Below, in pieces: positions 4,354 to 17,201 of a DNA stretch of 60,070 nt. Position numbers and translations under genes: made by a program. Under the pieces are notes generated by a model, which was not told the origin of the DNA, made no database searches, and saw only the letters and a program-made list of their open reading frames with translations. Source of the stretch: Thermodesulfobacteriota bacterium (GTDB lineage: Bacteria > Desulfobacterota > WTBG01 > CAIYCZ01 > CAIRTM01); NCBI GenBank assembly GCA_028282925.1, contig JANQGV010000207.1:1-60070 (forward strand), read 5' to 3'. Every line of letters begins with the position of its first letter. The first letter of the stretch is position 1.

Positions 4354-5412
4354 ATGTATAAGATAGCAGTAGTTCCCGGTGACGGTACCGGCCCGGAAGT
4401 TGTCCGGGAAGGTCTCAAGGTTTTGGAGGCCGTGGCACAGAAGAAAAATTTTACATATGAATTGACGGATTATGATCTTGGCGGCGAGCGGTATAAACGG
4501 ACCGGCGAGACGCTGCCGGACAGCGTGCTGGAAGAGTTTCGCTCCTTTAACGCCATTTACCTGGGGGCCATCGGGCACCCGGATGTGACGCCCGGAATCC
4601 TGGAAAAACAGATTCTGCTTCGGATGCGTTTTGATCTTGATCTGTACATCAACCTCCGGCCGGTCAAGCTGTTTCCCGGCGTTGACACCCCGATTAAGGA
4701 CAAGGGTCCTGAGGAAATTGATTATGTAGTGGTCCGGGAGAACACCGAGGGCCTGTATGCCGGTTCCGGCGGATTCCTGAAAAAAGGCACGCCGGATGAA
4801 GTTGCCATCCAGGAATCGGTCAACACCCGCAAGGGGGTGGAGCGGTGCCTGCGCTATGCATTTGAATTGTGTCAAAAGCGCAATAAGGACAAAAAGCTTA
4901 CCCTGTGCGGTAAAACCAATGTACTGACCTACGCCTTTGACCTGTGGCAGCGGACCTATAATGAAATTGCCGAGGAGTATCCTGAAATCACCCGGGATTA
5001 TGCCCACGTGGATGCCATCTGCATGTGGATGGTGAAAAACCCTGAATGGTTCGACGTTATCGTCACCGACAACATGTTCGGCGACATTATCACCGACCTG
5101 GCGGCCATGACCCAGGGCGGTGTGGGCGTTGCCGCCGGCGGTAATATCAATCCCGAGGGCGTTTCAATGTTTGAGCCCATGGGCGGTTCCGCTCCGAAAT
5201 ATACCGGGCAGAACGTGATAAACCCCATTGCGGCCATTGCAGCCCTGCAGATGATGCTGTATGTTCTGGGTGAGGAAGATGCTGCCAAGCTTGTGGAAGA
5301 TGCGGTTAAAAAAGTTGCCAGCCAGGACATGAAGAGCATGGCGGCCGGCAGGATGGGATACTCCACCAGCGAAGTCGGCGATTTGCTGGCCGACTATATT
5401 GCCAAGGCATAG
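4354..5412 (+). CDS. leuB: 3-isopropylmalate dehydrogenase (isocitrate/isopropylmalate dehydrogenase family)
   Basis: A 352-residue beta-decarboxylating dehydrogenase that oxidises 3-isopropylmalate with NAD+ to the keto acid of leucine. Visible motifs are VVPGDGTGPEV at the N-terminus, LRMRFDLDLYINLRPVKLF, VVVRENTEGLYAG, the metal-site region VTDNMFGDIITDLAA, and FEPMGGSAPKYTGQNVINP near the nucleotide site. The sequence belongs to the broad IDH/IPMDH/homoisocitrate group, so the leucine role rests largely on its position after leuCD. A GTG at 4345 is possible, but AGAAAGG lies at the proper distance from ATG 4354. The operon ends in a hairpin terminator. Confidence 0.92.
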   Translation: MYKIAVVPGDGTGPEVVREGLKVLEAVAQKKNFTYELTDYDLGGERYKRTGETLPDSVLEEFRSFNAIYLGAIGHPDVTPGILEKQILLRMRFDLDLYINLRPVKLFPGVDTPIKDKGPEEIDYVVVRENTEGLYAGSGGFLKKGTPDEVAIQESVNTRKGVERCLRYAFELCQKRNKDKKLTLCGKTNVLTYAFDLWQRTYNEIAEEYPEITRDYAHVDAICMWMVKNPEWFDVIVTDNMFGDIITDLAAMTQGGVGVAAGGNINPEGVSMFEPMGGSAPKYTGQNVINPIAAIAALQMMLYVLGEEDAAKLVEDAVKKVASQDMKSMAAGRMGYSTSEVGDLLADYIAKA

Positions 5413-5440
5413 TTTTTTATATTTTCAGTTTGTGAGAAAA

Positions 5441-5470
5441 GGGCAGATACATCAACCGGTGTATCTGCCC
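5441..5470. terminator. hairpin terminator between convergent leuB and lipoprotein gene
   Basis: A perfect 11-bp stem (GGGCAGATACA, 5441-5451, paired with 5460-5470) with an 8-base loop. It sits in the 72-bp gap between the stops of leuB (+) and the beta-propeller lipoprotein (-). On the minus strand the stem is followed by TTTTCTC; on the plus strand by a weak T-run. It probably terminates both genes. Confidence 0.8.
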
Positions 5471-5484
5471 TACTGTTTTGAGGG

Positions 5485-7704
5485 TTAATTTTCGACGACT
5501 TCTGTATCACGGTCCATTGCCTGGGAGCCGGGAAGCTCCAGTGTTGCGGACAGCGACAGGTCGTCGATGTCACTGGCCGTAATGGCCCGATCACTGATAG
5601 CATAAATGTAGTCGCCCATAAATATACTGCGTCGGATCTCCTGGCTGTACCAGTAATATCCGGGGTCGGCATTATAGAAGTCTGAGTGGTCGACACTGCC
5701 ATGGATCAAAAGGCCTGTTTCCGGATCAACGTTAACCAGCATGAGCCTGGAGCTGTATTCATATTCGTAATCTATGACAACGTCTGCATCGGTACTATTA
5801 TCCAGGTCGGCAGAAGGGGGTTCCTCCTGACCACTGTATGTATACCGATAACTGCTCAGCGGAACGGCCAGCATCTTTTTGGGCGCCCAGTACTGAAATG
5901 CCTTATGCTCACCGGCAGCCTCGCTCCAGGTGGAGTATGAAGACTGGTTGTCGTCTTCAACCTGTACCAGCGGAAGCTCATCGATCAGTGAAGGATCGCT
6001 GTAGTCGGAAACATCGAAAAGTGATACTTTGATCGACCAGTCCAGCCCCTCTTCATCGCCGCCGTAGCCGATGGTAAGCAGGGTGTCGTTATCAATGGGA
6101 TGAATGTAGGTGGACACACCGGGCACCTCGAGCTCACCCAGTATGGTTGGGTTTTCAGGGCTGCTGAGATCGATGACCCAGAGGGGGTCAATGTTTTTGA
6201 ACGTAACAAGGTAGGCGGTGTCCCTGATAAAGCGTGCCGACCAGATACGCTCTCCCTGTGCAATGCCTTTCACCGACCCGACAACCTCCAGGGTCTTGTT
6301 GTCGTCTTCCTTGAGCACATACACGTGATTTTCGGGGGGATCCGGCTCTTCCATCCACCAGCGGTTCCATTGTCCGGTGGTGGAAGCCACCCTGATGTAG
6401 TCATTGTATTCCGAGAGGGAGAACTGGTTCAGAACAGTGCCGTCAATCCGACCGCTGGAGGTATAGACGGCTTTGCCGAAATCGGAGATGTCGAACCGGT
6501 GAATATTGGTCGCTTCATCAAAGGTATCGTCGACACCCCAGTACCACCACGAGTTCTGGGCCGGTTCCGCAATGAGCAACGTGTCTGATGAGGCGTAGAT
6601 CATACTCCAGTTGCTGACGATATGATCGGCGTCGAAGGTAAACTCGGTATCCTGCAGATTAAAACTGATAATTGACGTGAACCCCCGGCTCATCCCGTCG
6701 TCGGCTGTGGTGAAATTCGCGCAGCCTTCTGCCGTGAAACTGTGGTCGATTATGTCCCCATCTTCTTTTTCAAAGATCCTGGGTACAAGGTCCGCCAGGG
6801 CAAGTGTGTCGATATAGGCATCATTATGGGCTATGGCTCTTTGGATGGCCTCATCCCAGATCTGTTTGCGACGCGGATCGTCCTCGGTCATTTCATAGTA
6901 TTCATCGGGAACGTCCGGCCAGTATTTCAACTCCTGTATGTACATGCTGGAGTAGGCGATCAGGTTGATGGAACTGCTGCGGTTGCGGGCGGTCTGATAA
7001 TACCCTTCCAGGTAGAGCTCTTGTATAACCTCCGGCGAGAGGGGGTTCTTGAGGTCGATTATGGTGAGTTTCAACAGTGTGCTGACGGGATACATGGTTT
7101 CACCCGAGCTGTTGTCGTAATAGTATTCATACAGTGGGTTATCCTTCTGGATGGAATATGTGGAGAGGTTTGAGAAAACAACCGCCCTGGTAGCCTGCCC
7201 GGTGTCGTTGTCTTTACTTATGAGCATTTCGGTAGGGTACCCTTCGATTTCGAAGATCGCTTCCTGGGTAAGCTGTCCGAATTCGGGAACTCCGGCAATA
7301 ACAAGCTTGTTGCCGTTCAGGGTGTAGATGTGATACCCGTCGGTTTTCACAAAGTCGGCCTCGTCGACCCCTTCTTCCTGGTTGTTTGTTCCGGAATAGT
7401 CTTCGCCTTCCTCCCGGCCTCCGTTGGTGTCGGCATCTGTGGCGGAGTCGTCTTCCGGAAATCCGTACAAAATCGTAATGTCGTTAAGCGACAACAACTG
7501 TACTCGTAACTCTTCCTTCAGGTTGCTTTTTAAGGCCGCTTCAAGCTCCCGGCAGGAGTTGAATGAAGACAGGGCCGGGGATGTGCGCGTCCGCTGTACC
7601 TGGTCCGTGGGGTCGTCCGGATCGCAGCCGGCAAGCATATACCCTGCCAGTAACAGTAATAGTATGGTGTAATATATTGAGATTCTATTCTTTCTTGTGT
7701 GCAT
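5485..7704 (-). CDS. secreted lipoprotein with beta-propeller domain (PF09826-like)
   Basis: A 739-residue lipoprotein: charged N-terminus, hydrophobic stretch, and lipobox LAGC with Cys26. The mature protein has an acidic linker and then the NNQE-GVDEADFVKTDGYHIY signature of the secreted beta-propeller family distantly related to WD40 repeats (COG4880/PF09826). Repeated blade-like segments follow to the C-terminus. These proteins are extracytoplasmic and of unknown function; binding or scaffolding is usual for propellers. GAGGAGGTGA stands ahead of the ATG at 7704, an excellent ribosome binding site. It is monocistronic or the last of a loose run of minus-strand envelope genes; the 248-bp gap upstream holds nothing I recognise. 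Confidence 0.85.
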   Translation of the reverse strand: MHTRKNRISIYYTILLLLLAGYMLAGCDPDDPTDQVQRTRTSPALSSFNSCRELEAALKSNLKEELRVQLLSLNDITILYGFPEDDSATDADTNGGREEGEDYSGTNNQEEGVDEADFVKTDGYHIYTLNGNKLVIAGVPEFGQLTQEAIFEIEGYPTEMLISKDNDTGQATRAVVFSNLSTYSIQKDNPLYEYYYDNSSGETMYPVSTLLKLTIIDLKNPLSPEVIQELYLEGYYQTARNRSSSINLIAYSSMYIQELKYWPDVPDEYYEMTEDDPRRKQIWDEAIQRAIAHNDAYIDTLALADLVPRIFEKEDGDIIDHSFTAEGCANFTTADDGMSRGFTSIISFNLQDTEFTFDADHIVSNWSMIYASSDTLLIAEPAQNSWWYWGVDDTFDEATNIHRFDISDFGKAVYTSSGRIDGTVLNQFSLSEYNDYIRVASTTGQWNRWWMEEPDPPENHVYVLKEDDNKTLEVVGSVKGIAQGERIWSARFIRDTAYLVTFKNIDPLWVIDLSSPENPTILGELEVPGVSTYIHPIDNDTLLTIGYGGDEEGLDWSIKVSLFDVSDYSDPSLIDELPLVQVEDDNQSSYSTWSEAAGEHKAFQYWAPKKMLAVPLSSYRYTYSGQEEPPSADLDNSTDADVVIDYEYEYSSRLMLVNVDPETGLLIHGSVDHSDFYNADPGYYWYSQEIRRSIFMGDYIYAISDRAITASDIDDLSLSATLELPGSQAMDRDTEVVEN

Positions 7705-7952
7705 TCTTATTCACCTCCTCAAAGGGTTCAAACATTGGTGTTTTAATACAGTTTCTTTTGCCCGCTTGTGGTACGTCCGACGGAAAACCACCCCCTTTCC
7801 TGCAATGGTGTGTACATGTGTTTTCTACAGGTATTAGTCGCAAAACAAGCCAATTTATTTCGCGAAAAAAGGGGTAGGCAGGGGCAGTAGCCGGGATATA
7901 CGCCGGACAGGGCTATCGGTCGATTTTTGGTGCAGACGGTGAGTAACAGCGG

Positions 7953-9668
7953 TTAGCTGCCATCGGCAAGGTTGGGATATTCCCGAATATCGTTTTTGAG
8001 GTTTCTGAGGACAATTTGAAGCTTTTTCGAAGCCTTATCATGCAGGGCTTTGATAAAGGACAGGCTTTCCTGTTTCAGTTCGGCTGAGACGGACAGGGAA
8101 TTTTGGGTGCCTAAAGAGGCCAGTTCCGGGGCCAGTTTGTCCAAAAGCGTTGAAAAGCGGCGGGTGCATTCCGGGTTTGCGCTGAGAATGCGTGTCAGTT
8201 CGTCGGCATGCCGATAATAGGCTTTAATATAGTTCTTCCCTGTTGTGCTTTTGTCCAGCACCACATCCCTGAATGAGCGCAGGGCAGCCAGGGTTTTCCG
8301 GTCCTGTAGTGCCGCTTCTGCAGGGCAGGTGCTGTTGTCGCTTTGTGGTAGCAAGGCAATGTTTTTATAGGTAATATCACCGGGTTGAATGTCAAAAAAG
8401 AACAATGCAGGCCAGTATCCTGTGAGTGTTGCCAGGGCTGCGAAGCCGCCTTCCGGCGCCACAAGATGAAATATGCCGTTGGTGCTGACCGCGCTGGAAC
8501 CGCTGTTTGAAACAACCAGTACATTTGAAAGCCCCTTGCCGGTATGGAAGTCTCTCACATATCCTTCAAGAAACCCCATGACCCCATAGGATGTGTCTTC
8601 CGTTTGCTGCCTGAAATAACTGCCGCCTATGCCGCCGATTGCTGAAGGCCCCCTGCCGGATACGTCCACAGTAAGGGCCGGCAGACCGACGCTGTGCGCA
8701 GCCCCATCCCTGGCGGGTAAAAATATCCACAGGGTGCCGGTATTGACACGGGACACGAGCACGGAACCGTCCCCGGCTACTGCCAGCGGAAACTGCATAT
8801 AACAGTCTGAGGCGGCCTCGGGTATTGATTCACGGATATCTACTTGATCGTTGATTTTTCCGAAGGCATCAAAAAAGAAGAGGTGGGTGGCCTGGTCCGT
8901 ACCCGTTTTGTTTCCCAATGCGACAAATCCTCCACCGGGATGCCCGGCAAGGGTGAATAAGAGAATGTTCTGCGACGTCAGGTCAACCTTATGGTTCAGC
9001 GTAAGATCGTTATTATAGAAATAGAGGTACGGTGTAAAACCGGCCCCGTTTCCCTCTTCATACCAGCAGAACGAAGATGCACCCATTTCCGGAATCAGCA
9101 CTAAGCGTCCGTCGGTAAGTCCGGCAACATCACCCATGCCGGTATATGCATACGGCCATCCGTCCGGGTCGTCCCAGACGTTTTTGGACGACAGCAATTG
9201 CCCCCCTGAAGTATACAAACTGATTTCCCCGGAATGAAGGCCTGTTGTTATAGAGCGACCGTTGCTCAATCCGGAGAAAAAGGGGCCGTACCCCTGGTCC
9301 GGAACGGCGGAGCGGACAATCCCGTCGGGGTCTATATGGCAGACCAACCATTGGCCGGAATAAAAATTATCACGATACAGCTTTACCAGCCAGCCCCCGT
9401 CACCGGCTTCCCGAACAAACATGGGGGTTCCCAAATCACTCAGATCAACCGTTTCTATTATGTTGCCGATGTAGATGTATACGCTCTGGGAGGTCCGATC
9501 GGACACGGCAAAAATGCGGTCGTCGGGATTGTCAAACGGGGTGCTGTTGTCCGCTGCAAGGCCCAGGGCAAATGAATACAGGGGTGATGAAAACACACCT
9601 GGGAATACTGCAAGAATGACAATAATGAGAAGAGGCTGTATTCGTTTCATAACAATCTGTTGTTCCAT
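7953..9668 (-). CDS. secreted protein, propeller-like N-part, CFI-box-like C-terminus
   Basis: A 571-residue exported protein with signal peptide (residues 1-36; ATG at 9650 is an alternative start). Residues about 45-350 are rich in short beta segments ending in aromatic or glycine residues and look like a beta-propeller, but I cannot name a family. At about 368-440 there is a carboxypeptidase-regulatory-like beta-sandwich (GYVRDFHTGKGLSNVLV, with TGYWPALFF). Residues 448-515 begin with a Cys and read LRSFRDVVLDKSTTGK, then YIKAYYRHADELTRILSANP, the layout of the CFI-box C-terminal domain of secreted proteins. The protein ends in a helical tail. The same C-terminal module occurs in the small secreted protein at 30917-31300. 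It lies 40 bp after the outer-membrane protein gene, so the two may be cotranscribed. Confidence 0.65.
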   Translation of the reverse strand: MEQQIVMKRIQPLLIIVILAVFPGVFSSPLYSFALGLAADNSTPFDNPDDRIFAVSDRTSQSVYIYIGNIIETVDLSDLGTPMFVREAGDGGWLVKLYRDNFYSGQWLVCHIDPDGIVRSAVPDQGYGPFFSGLSNGRSITTGLHSGEISLYTSGGQLLSSKNVWDDPDGWPYAYTGMGDVAGLTDGRLVLIPEMGASSFCWYEEGNGAGFTPYLYFYNNDLTLNHKVDLTSQNILLFTLAGHPGGGFVALGNKTGTDQATHLFFFDAFGKINDQVDIRESIPEAASDCYMQFPLAVAGDGSVLVSRVNTGTLWIFLPARDGAAHSVGLPALTVDVSGRGPSAIGGIGGSYFRQQTEDTSYGVMGFLEGYVRDFHTGKGLSNVLVVSNSGSSAVSTNGIFHLVAPEGGFAALATLTGYWPALFFFDIQPGDITYKNIALLPQSDNSTCPAEAALQDRKTLAALRSFRDVVLDKSTTGKNYIKAYYRHADELTRILSANPECTRRFSTLLDKLAPELASLGTQNSLSVSAELKQESLSFIKALHDKASKKLQIVLRNLKNDIREYPNLADGS

Positions 9669-9708
9669 AGATGTGCATATATGCTTAAAACGCTGTTACG
9701 GGAGCGGC

Positions 9709-11079
9709 CTAAAAATGATATATAACCGACATGAGCAGGGTGTGCTGGGTAACATCGGCCCGGGCATGTGGAATATCGGTTACGTCCCCTTCAACGTTAT
9801 CACCATAACGGAATTGATAGGCAATATCAAAAATTATTTTATCTATAGCAATCCCGGTACCCAGCGAAAAACCCCAGTAGTCTTCAGGGTTTTTCTCGGA
9901 AGGTTCGGGATCATAAAATATACCGCACCGAAGCGGAATAACAGCTCTTGGGAATATAAAAAGGTATTCGGCGCCAAGACGCACCTGGTGCGTGGCTTTC
10001 ACACGGCTTTGGTGTGATGGTTTGCCGCTGATGGGACTCATGCGGTTGCCCCGGCCGTCCTCAAGGATATAGTGTGACCATTCTGTTCTATATACATCAC
10101 ATGAAACGGTCAACCTGTCGGAGAGGCGCAGTGCCACGCCAAGGCCGTAGGAGAGGGGCATGTCGATATCAACGGACTCACGGATCTTAAGATGATTCCG
10201 GGTTGTTATGCCAAGCGACTGCCGTATGGTGGTTTGCACCAGGCGTTTGTGATGTGCAGTAGCGGTGAAGGGGGTTTTGACTACGCCGCCTATTGCTATG
10301 TATCGGTTAATGTTCCATAACAAGCCGATATGCATATTGAATCCGTTAAAGTCGGAGTAACGGTCGTGATCCCTGGTGGTAAAAGAGGTGGGGAAGAGGT
10401 TTGAGCTGCGTATGGTGCCTTTAACCGTCGAGTTTGTTTCCCAGCCGTTCAGGCCGAACAGCTTTGTTGTCCAGAAATTACAGGTGATGCCGAAGGAAAG
10501 ATTCGGTGTGATCTGGATTGCAAAAGCGGGAGAGATGGTCCGCAAAGCCCCCTTTTGTCTATAATCGACTGCCTGTGAAAAGCTGGTGGATGTTCCGGTA
10601 AAAGGATTGCCGGAGCTGCCCATGAAATCGAACTCCATGTCCCGGTCAAACTCGTACAGCCGTTGATAATTGAGGGAAACAATCATATTGCGGCGAAACA
10701 GTGTAAACGGATAGGCCAGGCTCATATAGTTTATGTCCCAGTCGGAAACCTCCTGTGTGCCTTTTGTTTCAGGATGAAACGCTGCGCTGAAAGTTTCGCG
10801 GAGCTTGAAATATGATACGGCAAAGGAAAACTCGGGCGTGCGCAACTGGGTCAGGCCCGCCGGGTTCCAGGACGCCGCGGTCGCATCGTCGGCAACGGCT
10901 ATGAAAGCGCCGCCCATGCCGGTGGCCCGGGCGCCTGAGCCCACGGGGTTCGGTGATGATGAGATGTTGACCTGCTGCGGCATTTGCTGGGCCCGGGCTG
11001 GGTGCTGCACCAGCAGCACAGCGGCGAGCACAAGCGCCGTCAAAGATAGGTATTTATATGTAATGCAGTTTAGTTTCAT
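9709..11079 (-). CDS. outer-membrane beta-barrel protein, FadL/PorV-like
   Basis: A 456-residue protein with a signal peptide ending around ARAQQ, then GSGARATGMGGAFIAVADD and ATAASWNPAGL. That is the hallmark N-terminal segment of FadL/OmpP1/TodX-type and PorV-like barrels. The rest alternates amphipathic strands with aromatic girdle residues and ends in SVIYHF, a C-terminal aromatic suited to BAM recognition. FadL relatives import hydrophobic molecules and PorV relatives serve secretion or attachment; which applies here is unknown. A TTG at 11112 gives a longer form, but ATG at 11079 starts directly at the signal peptide. The gene upstream in the same direction is separated by a 418-bp gap filled mostly by a dispersed repeat. 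Confidence 0.82.
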   Translation of the reverse strand: MKLNCITYKYLSLTALVLAAVLLVQHPARAQQMPQQVNISSSPNPVGSGARATGMGGAFIAVADDATAASWNPAGLTQLRTPEFSFAVSYFKLRETFSAAFHPETKGTQEVSDWDINYMSLAYPFTLFRRNMIVSLNYQRLYEFDRDMEFDFMGSSGNPFTGTSTSFSQAVDYRQKGALRTISPAFAIQITPNLSFGITCNFWTTKLFGLNGWETNSTVKGTIRSSNLFPTSFTTRDHDRYSDFNGFNMHIGLLWNINRYIAIGGVVKTPFTATAHHKRLVQTTIRQSLGITTRNHLKIRESVDIDMPLSYGLGVALRLSDRLTVSCDVYRTEWSHYILEDGRGNRMSPISGKPSHQSRVKATHQVRLGAEYLFIFPRAVIPLRCGIFYDPEPSEKNPEDYWGFSLGTGIAIDKIIFDIAYQFRYGDNVEGDVTDIPHARADVTQHTLLMSVIYHF

Positions 11080-11199
11080 TGTCAGAAATGTAATTATTTT
11101 TGTTGCCAACACTTTTGGAACATACGATATTCATTGTAACGAGACATGTGACTGCCCCACAAATTACAGTAATTAGGGAAGAACGGGTTGTTCTAGCTT

Positions 11200-11530: not shown

Positions 11531-13660
11531 TTATTTTGTAATCACCTTATCGCCTGCCGCGATCTGTTGCGGGGTGAATGTTTTTACGATGGTGCCTTTT
11601 GAGAATCTTTCACGTACTTCCGTTGTGGAAATAAGCCCCAGGATTTTTGTGTCCATCCCGAGGGGAGCCACACTGTCCGCTGTAACAGGTGCCGTTTCCT
11701 GGAATGACAACAGGCGCATGCCCCGGAAAATCGAGTCCGCACGTCCAAGATTAAAAAGTACTCCAGGGGCGGCCGCATCTATGATGCTTCCCTCACAGAG
11801 GGGAAACTGTTCTTTGAATTTCAGTGCCAGGCCGGTGAGCACCTCGCGAAGCGCAACGTTCGTGTCTCCTTCAAAGTAGGCGTCCTTCTCTGCCAGGATG
11901 AGCGATGTTTCCGTGTCAACTATCCGGGATACTATTTCCATCGTATTGTTTTTGAGTATAAACACATCACCCAGCAAAATGGTTTCAGAAGTCATGAGAC
12001 GGCCAAGACGTATTGCGGTTTTTCGGTCGAAAACCGATTCCTGCGACATCTGTTGTTCTGTAAGCAGCTTGTCAAGGTGCCGGCGCTCAAGTACGTTAAA
12101 ACGTTTCTGGTTGACGAAGGCATGGGACAGGGTCGCTTGAATATAGTCGGCAATCGGCTCGCCGGAGCCGTGCTTCTGGAAGGGATAGATCGTCAAAGAG
12201 AGCCGTGATCCGATTTGCCGGGCCCTGGGTATTTTCCTGATAACGGTTATTGTTTTTGAGATTCTCTGGCCGGAAACATCAACCATGTCTATCGTAATGG
12301 TGTTTTCCCCTTCCGTAAGCCCTACAAGCTTGCTGAACGCAATCAAGCGTTTGCCTGTTTTGAACAATTCCTGTAGAAACGACTCGAAAAAGCGGTCATG
12401 CGGTGCATCCAGCAGGGAAATGCCGTTGACCTGTATGTCCCGGATACCCTGGGACGAGGAAACAGTTCCTTCGAGAAAGAGGGTGTCGCTGTAGACGGTA
12501 TGTCCGTTTTTCAGGTTTTTTAAATCTATATTCGGCTTTGCCGGGGCTGCATGATCCTGCGCCGAGCCTGGACGGGCGGCAGTGTAGCGGGGCAGGGTCA
12601 TGGGGGGGAGGGCGTTGGGCGATTCAGGGGTGCCGGCAAAGGCCAGGCACACGGGGATTCCCCGTGTGCCGGAGTTGCCGTGCTCAGACACTGCCAGTAT
12701 GCCGGAAGTGGTGTTTCCGGCCGCATCTGAAACTGCATAGCTGATTTCAGAGCCGTTGCCGACCGTCTCTTGCGGCAGTTGTTCGTTTATTTTCAGAAAC
12801 GGTTTTCCGGGATGATGTGCCTCATGCGTTCGGTTGAAGGAAATAGATGCTATACCGGAGGTATCGTATGCAGCACCGCGGACCGTCACCGTGCCGCCGG
12901 CGTTGCGGCGGCCTTCCAGAAAGATGAGAGGTCCCTGTCTGTCAACGGTTACATTCAGTATGACCGGTGATGATGTGCGGCCCAGGAGGTCAACGGCATG
13001 CATGGAAATTCTGTTATGGCCTTCGGTAAGGGATACCTCGTGGGATACAGACACTTCCTTCTGTGTGTATTCAAGTGGTACCGACACCTCGTTGAAGGAG
13101 ACGCCCGATACAAAATAGTCATCCCTGGCCCGGACCTTGATTCTTATGGAAAGATCCCTGATTATCTGCGATTCAAGAGGGGTTACAATAGACAGGTCAG
13201 GTGCTTTCCTGTCGAGGTTGGTTTCTTCTAGCCACTTCCCGCGGGCTTTGTTCAGATAGAATGCGGCCCGGGCGGTTTTATATGACCGAATGGATGTTTC
13301 AAGGCACTCAATAGCCTCCGGGTATTTGCCGGTATTATAGAAGGCGATGCCGAGTTCCCGGTTCGGGAAATAGTCGATAAAGTGCATGCCGTAGGTTCGT
13401 GCCCGGCGCTGGTCTTTGCCGCGCCGGCGGCGGGCTTCTTTGAAATCGGCTATCGCTTCATCCCAGTATTCTCCTGCGGCATAGGACATGCCCCGGGCAT
13501 AGTAATCGTTCCATTTCTCCTTGAACAACCCGTCAACCGTTCCGTAGAGCTTATCGTCTTTTTTGTAGACGACCCCTTCCCGCACGGTGCAGGCCGGTAT
13601 GCACAGGGCAATGCATATGAACATAACTGCTACGTGAATATACCACTGCCGTGCAAGCAT
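11531..13660 (-). CDS. CsgG-like lipoprotein with TPR and Ig-like domains
   Basis: A 709-residue lipoprotein with lipobox IPAC (Cys24). About 50-150 holds two TPR-like helical pairs (YYARGMSYAAGEYWDEAIAD; then NTGKYPEAIECLETSI). From about 155 to 480 there are several Ig-like beta-sandwich repeats, recognisable from DRQGPLIFLEG, ISKTITVIRK and the 'LTEGENTITIDMVD' type turns. Residues about 490-615 form a CsgG/FlgO-like domain (FNVLERRHLDKLLTEQQ; LLGDVFILKNNTMEIVSRIV). The last 90 residues match a FlgT-C-like beta domain ending in GDKVITK. The last two modules are paralogous to the end of the CHAT protein encoded 24 bp upstream. Likely periplasmic or outer-membrane-anchored; the last gene of the sigma-factor operon. 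Whether it forms a CsgG-like pore is unknown. Confidence 0.8.
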   Translation of the reverse strand: MLARQWYIHVAVMFICIALCIPACTVREGVVYKKDDKLYGTVDGLFKEKWNDYYARGMSYAAGEYWDEAIADFKEARRRRGKDQRRARTYGMHFIDYFPNRELGIAFYNTGKYPEAIECLETSIRSYKTARAAFYLNKARGKWLEETNLDRKAPDLSIVTPLESQIIRDLSIRIKVRARDDYFVSGVSFNEVSVPLEYTQKEVSVSHEVSLTEGHNRISMHAVDLLGRTSSPVILNVTVDRQGPLIFLEGRRNAGGTVTVRGAAYDTSGIASISFNRTHEAHHPGKPFLKINEQLPQETVGNGSEISYAVSDAAGNTTSGILAVSEHGNSGTRGIPVCLAFAGTPESPNALPPMTLPRYTAARPGSAQDHAAPAKPNIDLKNLKNGHTVYSDTLFLEGTVSSSQGIRDIQVNGISLLDAPHDRFFESFLQELFKTGKRLIAFSKLVGLTEGENTITIDMVDVSGQRISKTITVIRKIPRARQIGSRLSLTIYPFQKHGSGEPIADYIQATLSHAFVNQKRFNVLERRHLDKLLTEQQMSQESVFDRKTAIRLGRLMTSETILLGDVFILKNNTMEIVSRIVDTETSLILAEKDAYFEGDTNVALREVLTGLALKFKEQFPLCEGSIIDAAAPGVLFNLGRADSIFRGMRLLSFQETAPVTADSVAPLGMDTKILGLISTTEVRERFSKGTIVKTFTPQQIAAGDKVITK

Positions 13661-13684
13661 AACGTGCCTGTCGAGTTGAATGTT

Positions 13685-15769
13685 TCAGTTTTTTTTGTTG
13701 ATGACCCGCAGGCCCTTTGTAAAACCCGCCCCCGTGTTTTGAACGGCAGCAACCGATGTGTGTTGTTCCTCCTGCACGATTTTCAGGGTTCCGACCCCCC
13801 GGCTCGCAGGGCTTTGGGTTTCTATATCATCAAGCACGGTAAACAGCATGCCCCGTGTAACGCCTGCTGCCGTGCCGATGTTGAGTGTCACGTCTTTTCC
13901 ATCGATGCCGGTAATGATTCCTTTGAGCGGATGCAGCGTTTCCAGTTGTTCCGCCACATCGTGGGCACAGGATTCGATAACAGCCCTCACCTCATCGTCG
14001 CCGACGTCCCTGTTCACCGAGATAATAATGTGCGAGGTGGCCGTTTCGATCACCCGGACCGCAATCGAGGTGTTCTTCTTGAGTTTGATTATTTCGCCGG
14101 TGCAGATAAAGCGTACCCCGAGCAGCTTTCCCAGCATGGAGAGAGCCATGTTCCGGTCGGCAATATCCGATGTGCTGATGTGCAGTTCTTCCATAATATC
14201 ACTGATCCGCTCCCGCTCTAGAAGGGTGAGGCGGCCTGTCTTGTGCAGCGCGTGTGAAAAAACCGCGGAGAGCAGTTGCTCGTGTTCCCGTTTTTCCCTG
14301 GAAATACCAATAATACTGAATCCCAGAAAAGAGAGCGTGCGGGGACTGGAGGTCCAGGTGTCCTGCGGTGTGACACGCGGGAGGACTTTTTTCTGCTGCT
14401 CATATTTTTTTGAAAGTTTTTTAAGAATGTCTGCGATATCCTTTTTCGTGGTGCCGTCAACAGTTGCAGGTACGGGCGCTTTTGCAGCGTGCTGTAACGA
14501 AGGGCTCTGCAGCTTGTCTTTGATAATGAAAAAACCGAACAGGAGGGCGGCCAGCACGACAATATAGGTAAATACGGTCAGGCCGAATGTTTTACGGTCG
14601 GGCGGAAGAGATCTGACGGCGCCGGCGGACAGGGGAGCCGATCCGTCGTACACCTCATGCGGCGAACCGGGGGCATGGGTTGCCTTTGCCGTATCAGCTT
14701 CAAAATACCTGAAATCAGGGTCTCCGTAGAGAACATAGCTGGCCCATAAAACAGCATCCTCGCCATAGGATGCGATGAGGGTTTCGCGTGCTTTTTGCAG
14801 GGCAGTGCCGATTGATTTTCCGGCAATGAGATTGTGGTAAAAAGCGTTTGAAAAGGTGTAGCTCGACTCATCCAATACATCCCAAAAGGTGCCGATATAA
14901 TGCTGCACCCCGGACAGGAGAAAGGCGTGGGCCATGCCGAACATCTTCCGGTTGTACATGCCGTCGTCTATCCATTCCTCCGTCCGCCCGGTTTGGCAGG
15001 CGTTTGAAAAAACCAGGGCAGGCATGGGCAGGTTATGCGAAAGGTCCAGGATGTCCCGGGGGGTGAATTTTCCCTGTTCCAGCAGCCAGCCGCTTTCCGA
15101 CGGGTTTTCGGGGAGGTGGTCCGCATGACCGGCATAATGGATGATGTCATAGTCCCGAACGCACTCTTTTATAGTATGTAGATCAACCTTGCGATTGAAG
15201 AGGTCGGCGTGCACAAGCGAGGAGCTCTGGTCGAGTTCTTTGCGCAGGCAGTCACCTTCTCGATAGGCATTTTTAAGGTTCCGGCAGGGGTCGCACAGAA
15301 TCAATACCTTCAGGGGGAAGAACAGGGAGCGCATGCGTTTTTTGGGCACTTTGTAGCGGGAGCGGATAATTCTGCCCATGCTGAATTTTCTGCAGAGAAA
15401 AGTATTGCCGTCATGTAAGAGCTCCCAGGGGACATGCACCAGGCTGTCGTCAATGGTGATGACAAGGCTTTCGCAGGGTGTTTCAATCAGCTCTTTTTGT
15501 ATGTCATGGGGCAACAGCTCTTCGAAGAGGCTGAATCCAGTGGTTTTCAGTTGCGCGTTGACCTCCCCGGCAAGGGAGCCGCGCAGGTTGGCATTGTTGA
15601 GCAGCCTGGAAACCTCCCGGCACTTCGCGTCTACCCGGGCAACATCAAAAGCCTTCTCCTCAAAATGGCGAACGGTTGCCCGGGCCGCATCCGCGCGGGA
15701 ATGGGCGTGTATCTTCAGGCGGTTTTTTTGCCGTGTTATTTCAAGCTCGAATGTTTGGTGTAGTGCCAT
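13685..15769 (-). CDS. CHAT-domain protease fused by a TM helix to a CsgG-like domain
   Basis: A 694-residue protein. Residues about 80-355 are a CHAT domain (caspase-like clan CD peptidase), with the catalytic His in HYAGHADH (His215) and Cys in VFSNACQTG (Cys258), both intact. The usual conserved surroundings VPWELLHD, GTFWDVLD and VLYGDPDF are present. A linker leads to one membrane helix (about 396-416), so CHAT should be cytoplasmic. Residues about 490-615 outside the membrane form a CsgG/FlgO-like domain (LTLLERERISDIMEELH) and 615-694 a FlgT-C-like beta domain. It follows the anti-sigma stop by five bases. The architecture suggests a receptor coupling an envelope event to cytoplasmic proteolysis; that is inference. 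Candidate substrates include the anti-sigma factor. Confidence 0.85.
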   Translation of the reverse strand: MALHQTFELEITRQKNRLKIHAHSRADAARATVRHFEEKAFDVARVDAKCREVSRLLNNANLRGSLAGEVNAQLKTTGFSLFEELLPHDIQKELIETPCESLVITIDDSLVHVPWELLHDGNTFLCRKFSMGRIIRSRYKVPKKRMRSLFFPLKVLILCDPCRNLKNAYREGDCLRKELDQSSSLVHADLFNRKVDLHTIKECVRDYDIIHYAGHADHLPENPSESGWLLEQGKFTPRDILDLSHNLPMPALVFSNACQTGRTEEWIDDGMYNRKMFGMAHAFLLSGVQHYIGTFWDVLDESSYTFSNAFYHNLIAGKSIGTALQKARETLIASYGEDAVLWASYVLYGDPDFRYFEADTAKATHAPGSPHEVYDGSAPLSAGAVRSLPPDRKTFGLTVFTYIVVLAALLFGFFIIKDKLQSPSLQHAAKAPVPATVDGTTKKDIADILKKLSKKYEQQKKVLPRVTPQDTWTSSPRTLSFLGFSIIGISREKREHEQLLSAVFSHALHKTGRLTLLERERISDIMEELHISTSDIADRNMALSMLGKLLGVRFICTGEIIKLKKNTSIAVRVIETATSHIIISVNRDVGDDEVRAVIESCAHDVAEQLETLHPLKGIITGIDGKDVTLNIGTAAGVTRGMLFTVLDDIETQSPASRGVGTLKIVQEEQHTSVAAVQNTGAGFTKGLRVINKKN

Positions 15770-15774
15770 TTTTT

Positions 15775-16602
15775 TTACATCATCCGGGTTGATACGGTAA
15801 TGCGTTTGATTTCCCGGCCGTCACGGGAAAGTATAAGCTCATAGGCGCCATGTGGAATGGTTTTGAAAACCGCTTTGCCTTTTGTCACAAATAAAGAGAC
15901 TGTTTCTTCCTCGGCATGGTACAGTGATACGCGGGCATTTTCAAGAGGCGTTTTGTCCGGCGCAACAGTCATAAATACCATGATCTCAACCCCCGTATCC
16001 GCCAGGGGTTCAATTTCAATGCGCGTGTCTATTTCACCGCTATCGTCATGTATGACGCGTATGTTTTCACGTACTCCTCCGAGGCGGTTCCTGACAAAAA
16101 TCGGTTGCGGGGCAATGGGAATCAGCGGAGCAAAAAAATGTTTCACCCGTGTCCAGCACTCTTCCATGAATCCGGCAACGCTTTTTCCGGGAGACTTGCT
16201 GAGCGTGTAGTGGCGGGCGACAATATCAAGAAACCGGGGTGCTTCAGGTGCCGGGGCGGTTAGGGCTCCGGGATCCGGACACTCTTTTCCTAAAATAGTC
16301 AGTTTTTTCTGCAGTTTCCTGCAATCGATACATGCTTCCAGGTGCAGGTCCGCGGCCTGAGCCGCTACGCTTGAAAGGGAATCGTTTCGACAGACATAGT
16401 CGACAAGCAGTTCTGCCGGAACACACTGGTAGTAGTGCTGCATGGTATGGTGCATTGCGCGCAATTCCTGCATGTCGCCGGCGCAGGTCCGGCAGGTGCT
16501 CAGATGACCGGCGAACAGTTTGTGTTCATCCGGGTCGAGGCAGTCATCCAGGAAGAGCAAAAGTCTGTCGTTTATATCCGGCCGGGTGCATTGTGGGTTC
16601 AC
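15775..16602 (-). CDS. anti-sigma factor with two zf-HC2 zinc fingers, no membrane helix
   Basis: A 275-residue protein with two zf-HC2-type zinc-binding motifs: Cys21-His33-Cys37-Cys40 (HLSTCRTC) and Cys71-His87-Cys91-Cys94 (HLEACIDC). This is the anti-sigma (ZAS) signature, duplicated. No transmembrane segment is obvious, unlike most zf-HC2 anti-sigma factors. The C-terminal 100 residues are beta-rich (TPLENARVSLYHAEE; PHGAYELIL), like a carboxypeptidase-regulatory or CNA-B fold. The start is GTG at 16602, which overlaps the sigma factor's TGA (GTGA) and has AAGGAG seven bases upstream. An ATG at 16653 would need a 55-bp overlap and has no such site. Translationally coupled to the sigma factor. 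Confidence 0.85.
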   Translation of the reverse strand: MNPQCTRPDINDRLLLFLDDCLDPDEHKLFAGHLSTCRTCAGDMQELRAMHHTMQHYYQCVPAELLVDYVCRNDSLSSVAAQAADLHLEACIDCRKLQKKLTILGKECPDPGALTAPAPEAPRFLDIVARHYTLSKSPGKSVAGFMEECWTRVKHFFAPLIPIAPQPIFVRNRLGGVRENIRVIHDDSGEIDTRIEIEPLADTGVEIMVFMTVAPDKTPLENARVSLYHAEEETVSLFVTKGKAVFKTIPHGAYELILSRDGREIKRITVSTRMM

Positions 16603-17201
16603 GGTGTCGCTCCTTTTTGTTGTTCGCACAGTGTGCGCAGTTTCAACAGACATCGTTTCAGCCGTGAGGCAACGGTGCCCATGGGAAGCTGTAAGGCTTT
16701 GGCAATTTCTTCGTAGGACTGATCCTGGTAGTAGCGCAGCCTGATAAGCATCCTGCAGCGTTCACTGATGGCGTTCAGTGATACCCGCACCATCTTTATC
16801 GTTTCAATATTTTCAAGCAGGCTGCTGAATGAAGAACGTTTGTCTTCCAGTGCCAGTTCCGCGGCCTGGCTTTCATCGTGCAGTGAAACCACGTTTTTTT
16901 CGCCGCTTCTTTTGCCGGCGGATTGTTTCCTGATGTGGGAAATGCATTTATTCTTTGCAATGTTTGATGCAAACGTCTCAAGCGAGCAATCAAACTTGAA
17001 TGTTTTGAGTGAGACGACCAGGCTGGCCAGCACTTCCTGCATGACTTCTTCGGCTTCCTGGTTGCTGAACCCCCACGTTTTCCAGTGGGTGATATAATAG
17101 ATGGTTCCGCAGGTGCGATTATACAGCAGAACCCATGCATCCTGGTTGCCTGCCAGGCAGTGCCGTACTAACTCCCGATCATTATCGATTGCAACCGGCA
17201 A
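16599..17201 (-). CDS. ECF-type RNA polymerase sigma factor
   Basis: A sigma-70 family, extracytoplasmic-function type protein of 200 residues. Region 2 includes ELVRHCLAGNQDAW and the helix ending EAEEVMQEVLASL; region 4 has LRYYQDQSYEEIAKALQLPM followed by GTVASRLKRCLLKL, the -35 recognition helix-turn-helix. The start chosen is TTG at 17201, with AGGGGAGG eight bases upstream; it gives the family's usual length. ATG at 17327 adds 42 residues with no ribosome binding site. First gene of the operon sigma-anti-sigma-CHAT-lipoprotein, all overlapping or within 24 bp. ECF operons usually autoregulate; I could not identify the promoter in the 187-bp gap upstream of 17327. Confidence 0.88.
   Translation of the reverse strand: MPVAIDNDRELVRHCLAGNQDAWVLLYNRTCGTIYYITHWKTWGFSNQEAEEVMQEVLASLVVSLKTFKFDCSLETFASNIAKNKCISHIRKQSAGKRSGEKNVVSLHDESQAAELALEDKRSSFSSLLENIETIKMVRVSLNAISERCRMLIRLRYYQDQSYEEIAKALQLPMGTVASRLKRCLLKLRTLCEQQKGATP

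Follow-up and report, generated by a model that had tools for sequence, protein, structure and literature searches.

The window analysed in this study (60,070 nucleotides of contig JANQGV010000207.1, from a Thermodesulfobacteriota bacterium) carries a four-gene operon on its minus strand which encodes, in order, an extracytoplasmic function (ECF) sigma factor, a zinc-finger anti-sigma factor (ASF), a fusion of a CHAT protease domain through a transmembrane (TM) helix to a CsgG/FlgT-like domain, and a TPR/Ig/CsgG-like lipoprotein. The first three genes form a real conserved module, found in two phyla and, in a divergent version, in Leptospira. The operon is proposed to be an envelope-to-gene switch in which CHAT, set off by an envelope signal, cuts the ASF and frees the sigma factor; we hold this to be slightly more probable than its contrary. 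We infer that the ASF binds this sigma factor, that CHAT is active and has the ASF as its substrate, with Arg188 as the site, and likewise the nature of the signal.

At rest, the cytosolic zinc-finger ASF would keep the ECF sigma factor from acting, and the CHAT fusion would be held in the inner membrane with the protease on the cytoplasmic side and the CsgG/FlgT-like domain on the periplasmic side, where this domain probably touches the CsgG-like outer-membrane lipoprotein and a FadL-like barrel. An envelope signal would reshape the periplasmic part and switch on CHAT, which would cleave the ASF linker between the sigma-binding part and the beta-sandwich, most likely after Arg188, and the freed sigma factor would then transcribe a regulon elsewhere. 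The features of the operon (window positions) are listed below.

16599..17201, minus strand: ECF sigma factor, 200 amino acids, TTG start (Pfam Sigma70_r2/r4 and NCBIfam sigma70-ECF; GGGGAGG Shine-Dalgarno).
15775..16602, minus strand: cytosolic zinc-finger anti-sigma factor, ASF, probable GTG start (zf-HC2 above the cut-off; TM helix absent; predicted fold; GTGA overlap and AAGGAG).
16090..16092, minus strand: codon of ASF Arg188, in the linker, proposed P1 residue of the CHAT cut (invariant in 48 of 48 ASFs and in Leptospira).
13685..15769, minus strand: CHAT-TM-CsgG/FlgT-like fusion protein, 694 amino acids (Pfam CHAT 123.7 bits and CsgG 31.2 bits; structure model and fold matches).
14687..15769, minus strand: CHAT protease domain, residues 1-361, including an N-terminal part outside the Pfam model (range 3-361 aligned to separase with VIA-align).
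15125..15127, minus strand: codon of the catalytic His215 (60 of 61 aligned CHAT domains).
14996..14998, minus strand: codon of the catalytic Cys258 (58 of 61; those without it are gapped or less closely related copies).
14522..14578, minus strand: transmembrane helix, fusion residues 398-416 (19 residues with a hydropathy of 2.59; modelled as helix 392-416).
13685..14341, minus strand: predicted periplasmic CsgG/FlgT/TolB-N-like domain, residues 477-694 (Pfam CsgG; Foldseek matches to FlgT 3w1e and TolB).
11531..13660, minus strand: TPR/Ig-like/CsgG-like outer-envelope lipoprotein, 709 amino acids (Pfam TPR, Glucodextran_B and CsgG; lipobox IPAC; homologues beside CHAT-CsgG genes).

Whole genomes (395 of the window's phylum and 193 of Omnitrophota) were searched with a CHAT-region profile and an ASF profile. 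CHAT was found in 36 of the Omnitrophota genomes and a full ASF in 38. At all 35 Omnitrophota CHAT loci examined the ASF gene was immediately upstream (at -12 to +19 bp), and the sigma gene was directly before it in 34 of 34 readable loci, the 35th being masked by an N run. The two Omnitrophota ASFs that have no full CHAT with them are situated at the ends of contigs, and at one of these ends the start of CHAT can still be seen. The window's phylum contained 17 CHAT loci above 400 bits, in 16 genomes, and the ASF was directly upstream in 10 of these 17 close orthologues. Full-length ASFs (including the beta domain) numbered 11, in 10 genomes, all of which also had CHAT; ten of the 11 adjoined CHAT, and the last, in a genome that likewise had CHAT, lay by a sigma gene on a different contig. 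The linkage of sigma factor, ASF and CHAT is not due to chance. Of the four genes that an earlier note on this DNA had grouped together, these three stay together in other genomes, whereas the fourth, for the lipoprotein, accompanies them in the window's phylum alone.

The best match in a plasmid collection was Leptospira interrogans plasmid pLiSL25 (NZ_CP092665.1), in which genes for a sigma factor, an ASF-like protein and CHAT stand in a row. The CHAT is an unannotated open reading frame (L179, 3854-5065) with YSGH and SNSCQ motifs, and the ASF-like protein matched the beta domain and linker at 28.8 bits. A search of the 395 genomes of the window's phylum with the Leptospira CHAT gave no close copy.

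The CHAT domain of the window (Pfam PF12770) scored well above the curated cut-off of 24 bits (E 1.3e-35). Its catalytic His215 and Cys258, noted earlier as intact, are both present and are conserved in all close orthologues. The dyad exceptions among the 61 aligned domains were a kinase–pseudo-CHAT in genome G042 that has lost both residues (L059 1447-3450, G042:C105; a kinase joined to a degenerate CHAT, hence a pseudo-protease paralogue), one copy in G263 with Cys changed to Arg, and one N-masked copy. A structure model of the fusion had a mean predicted local distance difference test score (pLDDT) of 80, with most of the CHAT part above 85. Residues 3-361 of the model aligned to separases (Z 25.4), to Csx29 bound to Csx30 (Z 24.3), to gingipain R (Z 22.1) and to DdvA (Z 20.5), and Foldseek ranked Csx29 (8eey) first. 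When the single CHAT fusion was compared with the PDB by phmmer no match was returned, and the likeness was seen by profile and fold searches. As modelled, the window CHAT is of the caspase/separase type (clan CD), and is predicted to be proteolytically active.

The sigma factor was identified by its Sigma70_r2 (E 1e-8) and Sigma70_r4 (E 4e-12) matches. The ASF matched zf-HC2 at 22.9 bits (cut-off 22.2) and has a second H-x3-C-x2-C motif; in the predicted fold the two motifs are followed by a helical part, a linker with an invariant Arg and a C-terminal beta-sandwich. Hydropathy analysis gave no TM helix in the ASFs. The ASF gene lies directly downstream of the ECF sigma gene, as for class I ZAS anti-sigma factors, and the protein probably binds and inhibits the sigma factor of the operon.

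Among the 48 ASFs of the two phyla, the residues that are invariant besides the start Met are Arg188, Arg241, Ser253 and Phe263 (numbering counted from the ATG at 16653). The last three are in the C-terminal beta-sandwich, and Arg188 is, the start Met aside, the sole invariant residue outside it. It falls within residues 173-195 (pLDDT below 50 in the model), between the zinc-finger/helical part and the beta-sandwich, and is kept in the Leptospira protein, in which the zinc ligands are lost. Cleavage after Arg (or Lys) is a property of separases, metacaspases and gingipain R (PMC4357240); the P1 arginine is held by Asp163 of gingipain R or Asp365 of MALT1, in the helix that follows the first core strand, and separases are acidic at this place (PMC4626109). 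Glu171 of the window CHAT, conserved in 60 of the 61 domains, is in the corresponding helix (strand 153-159 and helix 166-180 of the model). Because Arg188 is invariant in a low-confidence linker, related proteases cut after Arg (or Lys) and Glu171 stands where an Asp holds the P1 Arg, cleavage of the ASF by CHAT after Arg188 is a reasonable prediction. A further P1 residue of separases, Asp2151, is reported to be replaced by Lys670 in Csx29 (PMC9729208). Asp300 was considered as a separase-type P1 pocket residue of the window CHAT and was dropped, as an ungapped alignment puts Lys670 of Csx29 four positions on, at Tyr304.

CHAT could also control the ASF without cutting it, by binding the C-terminal domain and releasing or sequestering the ASF on signal (partner switching), with the dyad used for another purpose. 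The beta-sandwich of the ASF is as well conserved as the zinc finger and could dock, and the anti-sigma factor DdvA has a CHAT-fold domain in the same chain, so a CHAT can belong to an anti-sigma receptor. However, the His-Cys dyad is kept in every close orthologue of the two phyla, which would be needless for a pure scaffold, and the invariant linker Arg is outside a folded domain. Control of this kind is considered quite unlikely.

A very unlikely alternative is that the ASF itself senses zinc or redox state, in the manner of the RsrA-like ZAS switch, and that CHAT, the lipoprotein and the barrel are mere effector genes of the operon. The H-x3-C-x2-C motifs are those of ZAS proteins and the ASF has weak similarity to RsrA, RsiW and ChrR. 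The zinc ligands are kept in 46 of 48 ASFs, but the two Omnitrophota ASFs that have lost them, like the Leptospira protein, still retain Arg188 and the beta domain; moreover, the start of the Omnitrophota operon resembles a housekeeping promoter (described below).

The constant core among relatives of the fusion is CHAT plus one TM helix, and the window protein has one strong TM helix. The domains before CHAT are a nucleotide cyclase in most loci of the window's phylum, including the second copy carried by the genome of the window (L040), a kinase and a cyclase in L042, and a TIR-like domain in L086 (by sequence inspection). After the TM helix are found a CsgG-like domain, TPRs plus a CsgG-like domain, TPRs only (Omnitrophota L004/L005) or, as read from the sequences, FlgO/TolB-N-like plus TPR (L145), discoidin (F5/8 type C)-like repeats (L155, L156, L176) and a DUF4384-like part (L085). 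Lys and Arg are richer on the N-terminal side of the helix in most relatives, equal on the two sides in the window protein and reversed in L085. Because ATP-using domains are on the CHAT side of the TM helix and positive charge is mostly greater there, CHAT is placed by prediction in the cytoplasm with the sigma factor and the ASF, and the CsgG-like part in the periplasm, in line with the topology on which the earlier note had relied. None of the three grounds on which that note would have been refuted applies in full, and its interpretation is supported in part, in linkage, topology and active site.

Judged from these architectures, the region beyond the membrane is exchangeable and the CsgG-like domain is only one of several versions. 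The earlier account of the CsgG-like part as the sensor is corrected here, this part not being the constant element of the system. In the window fusion the CsgG match (E 1.7e-7) covers only profile positions 38-106 of 210, and by fold (Foldseek) the domain resembles FlgT (3w1e) and the N-terminal domain of TolB. A curli-type CsgG secretion channel was rejected in view of the partial match, the FlgT/TolB-N fold and the anchoring of the fusion by a TM helix instead of as a lipoprotein. In L086 (4922-6892) the TIR-like domain is joined to CHAT-TM, the CsgG part is the next open reading frame, across an N run, and sigma and ASF genes are upstream. The second copy in the window's genome (L040, G000:C105:44000-52369) has genes for RecJ, sigma factor, ASF and a cyclase-CHAT-TM-TPR protein cut by the contig end; L041 (G000:C173:1-4187), with CsgG-like, barrel and lipoprotein genes, is probably the other half of this copy.

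Several findings weigh against the cutting of the ASF as proposed here. Seven CHAT orthologues of the window's phylum (G004, G011, G013, G042, G057, G091 and G092) are without an adjacent sigma or ASF gene, the contigs of G011 and G092 being short, and anti-sigma cutting therefore cannot be the sole job of CHAT; in G057 a Crp-like gene takes the place of the sigma and ASF genes. In Leptospira the CHAT is without an obvious TM helix and the ASF without a zinc finger, so neither part is universal. The window ASF is divergent (17-21% identity to relatives, with an extra zinc finger), and its structure model was built from 9 sequences, with a mean pLDDT of 61. The equivalent of the second separase determinant, Asp2151, was not securely placed in the window CHAT, and Arg specificity therefore rests on Glu171. 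Finally, Arg188 could be kept for docking instead of cleavage.

The seven orthologues also bear on another account, in which the main substrate of CHAT is a different protein (an effector of cell death or defence, or a regulator of the envelope) and the sigma factor and ASF are a parallel output or an expression adjuster, with the ASF perhaps cut incidentally. The fusions to cyclase, kinase and TIR domains point to several outputs, and caspase systems with neighbouring ECF sigma genes have been described as conflict systems (PMC8195603). However, ASF and CHAT occur almost one to one in Omnitrophota, which is hard to explain unless the two are partners, and PADLOC made no system call in the window, returning weak single matches only (BovA at 3e-6 for CHAT and a generic helix-turn-helix for the sigma factor). 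The flanking genes are ordinary and no defence island was seen, and a defence-island reading was rejected on these grounds. A different main substrate is regarded as unlikely. In G057, the Crp-like regulator gene (L052, 2501-3217) is before the cyclase-CHAT gene and a gene for a cyclic-nucleotide-binding kinase (8681-10117) is downstream of the cluster, which suggests a cyclic-nucleotide output from the fused cyclase.

The closest known parallel to the proposed cleavage of the ASF by CHAT is Craspase, of type III-E CRISPR, in which the TPR-CHAT protease Csx29 cuts Csx30, the inhibitor of the ECF sigma factor CASP-sigma (RpoE), in its C-terminal domain, a C-terminal fragment alone being a sufficient substrate (PMC10028731). 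As there, one locus combines a CHAT protease with an ECF sigma factor and a sigma inhibitor, and the fold of the window CHAT has in Csx29 one of its best matches; the linker and beta-sandwich of the ASF would take the substrate role of Csx30. The two differ in that the window CHAT is fused to a TM helix and a predicted periplasmic domain, whereas Csx29 is fused to cytosolic TPRs bound to Cas7-11, and in that the inhibitor is a zinc-finger ASF here and Csx30 there. Profile and fold searches with the ASF gave no significant Csx30-like match, although a weak or absent match would not exclude a relation to Csx30; the C-terminal domain gave weak beta-sandwich matches in Foldseek, none at E <= 0.001. 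No RAMP-family protein (Cas7-11/gRAMP) was found in the 96%-complete genome, in a search whose control was positive in known CRISPR genomes, and a link to type III CRISPR was rejected on this ground.

DdvA (PDB 8rot/8rw5, 8rlz) resembles the system in being a transmembrane anti-sigma factor with a zinc-finger-like N-terminal segment, matched by the ASF profile, and a C-terminal CHAT fold. However, DdvA is a single chain in which the CHAT domain and the sigma-binding part are at opposite ends, probably on different sides of the membrane, whereas the ASF of the window is a separate soluble protein and its CHAT is, by prediction, cytoplasmic. DdvA is from Myxococcus xanthus, with DdvS as its partner. 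In CalpL-CalpT-CalpS, a regulated protease destroys the anti-sigma factor to release an ECF sigma factor. The same principle is known from DegS/RseP-RseA-sigmaE and from RsiW (cited in PMC10028731). The proteases of the RseA, RsiW and Calp systems are PDZ-serine, intramembrane or SAVED-Lon enzymes, none being a CHAT joined to an envelope receptor domain. In the EACC2/TRADD-N caspase-ECF-sigma conflict systems, caspase-fold genes stand beside ECF sigma genes and have cyclase or other signalling fusions, but the caspases are of another family, and the available part of the source reports neither a zinc-finger ASF nor a TM-CsgG receptor (PMC8195603). No report matching the present gene composition was found in the literature searched. 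The earlier statement that no described system has this exact composition is upheld for the architecture, which is new, but only for that, since the coupling of CHAT to an ECF sigma and anti-sigma pair is already known from Craspase (Csx29-Csx30-CASP-sigma) and from DdvA.

A broader proposal, held tentatively and put a little short of an even chance, is that the operon belongs to widespread, non-CRISPR one-component envelope receptors in which a membrane CHAT cuts a soluble zinc-finger ASF after one invariant Arg. The periplasmic sensors (CsgG-like, TPR, discoidin-like and others) and the cytoplasmic outputs (cyclase, kinase, TIR) would be exchangeable, and Craspase would be one CRISPR-coupled variant. 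If true, caspase/separase-type proteolysis would be a general route from the envelope to ECF sigma factors, distinct from both CRISPR and the RseA/site-2-protease pathway. The hypothesis specifies which protein would be the partner, which residues would be catalytic and where the cut would fall; the swapped sensor and effector domains would be a natural toolkit for how CHAT is switched on from across the membrane, and the divergent Leptospira trio brings the question within reach of a cultivated genus.

The lipoprotein contains TPR, Glucodextran_B/Ig-like and CsgG (E 1.4e-7) parts, and its hydrophobic N-terminus ends in the lipobox-like IPAC. Its CsgG-like part is homologous to that of the CHAT fusion (32% identity, E 3e-10), and a like-with-like contact of the two across the periplasm is plausible. 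A homologue of the lipoprotein gene adjoins the CHAT-CsgG gene in most loci of the window's phylum. The four genes of the earlier note were confirmed in order, strand and domains, but its coordinates leave out the next gene, which in relatives is in the same cluster.

9709..11112, minus strand: FadL/PorV-like outer-membrane barrel (11112-9709), probable member of the cluster (Pfam Toluene_X, NCBIfam BamG/PorV; neighbour of CHAT and lipoprotein homologues in relatives).

Genes for the lipoprotein and the barrel accompany those of CsgG-type receptors and were not found within the few kilobases examined at the Omnitrophota loci. A third CHAT gene of the window's genome (L060, G000:C261, 8130-10856) is directly followed by lipoprotein (6109-8103) and barrel (4748-6097) genes homologous to those of the window; its TPR-CHAT product begins like a lipoprotein and has what looks like a His-Cys dyad, and its CHAT may face the periplasm. 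After the barrel gene in the window, a 571-amino-acid secreted protein with a CFI-box C-terminal domain is encoded at 7953-9668.

The start of the sigma gene was set at TTG 17201, which is preceded by GGGGAGG and is for this reason favoured over a longer open reading frame from 17327; the start given earlier is thus supported. For the ASF gene the candidates were the ATG at 16653 of the open reading frame list (55-bp overlap with the sigma gene) and the GTG at 16602. The latter is probably the start, since it shares bases with the stop codon of the sigma gene (GTGA) and AAGGAG stands 7 bp before it, and the annotation was refined in this sense. The intergenic gaps are 5 bp between the ASF and CHAT genes and 24 bp between the CHAT and lipoprotein genes.

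Expression signals were sought at the Omnitrophota operons (L144-L178), and the following pattern was established for these operons. TATAAT was present within 70 nt before the sigma start in 21 of 33 operons (shuffled sequences: mean 2.7, maximum 9), was 2-10 nt before the start codon in 20 of the 33, and was found before the ASF or CHAT gene in 0 of 35. This suggests a housekeeping promoter before the sigma gene and perhaps a leaderless mRNA; the sigma/ASF/CHAT set would therefore be pre-made and not self-induced. Autoregulation by the sigma factor was rejected, as the ATGTC-N16-TTTGC pattern upstream of the 33 sigma genes is coding sequence of the upstream gene, and so was an ECF-type promoter at the sigma start, as the remaining signal, TATAAT by the start codon, is the opposite of one. 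No regulon could be derived from motif enumeration upstream of the 33 sigma genes. Next to the ASF gene of the window's phylum that does not adjoin CHAT is a gene for a 1449-amino-acid secreted repeat protein (L113, 9522-13871; G091:C235), a possible target of the sigma factor.

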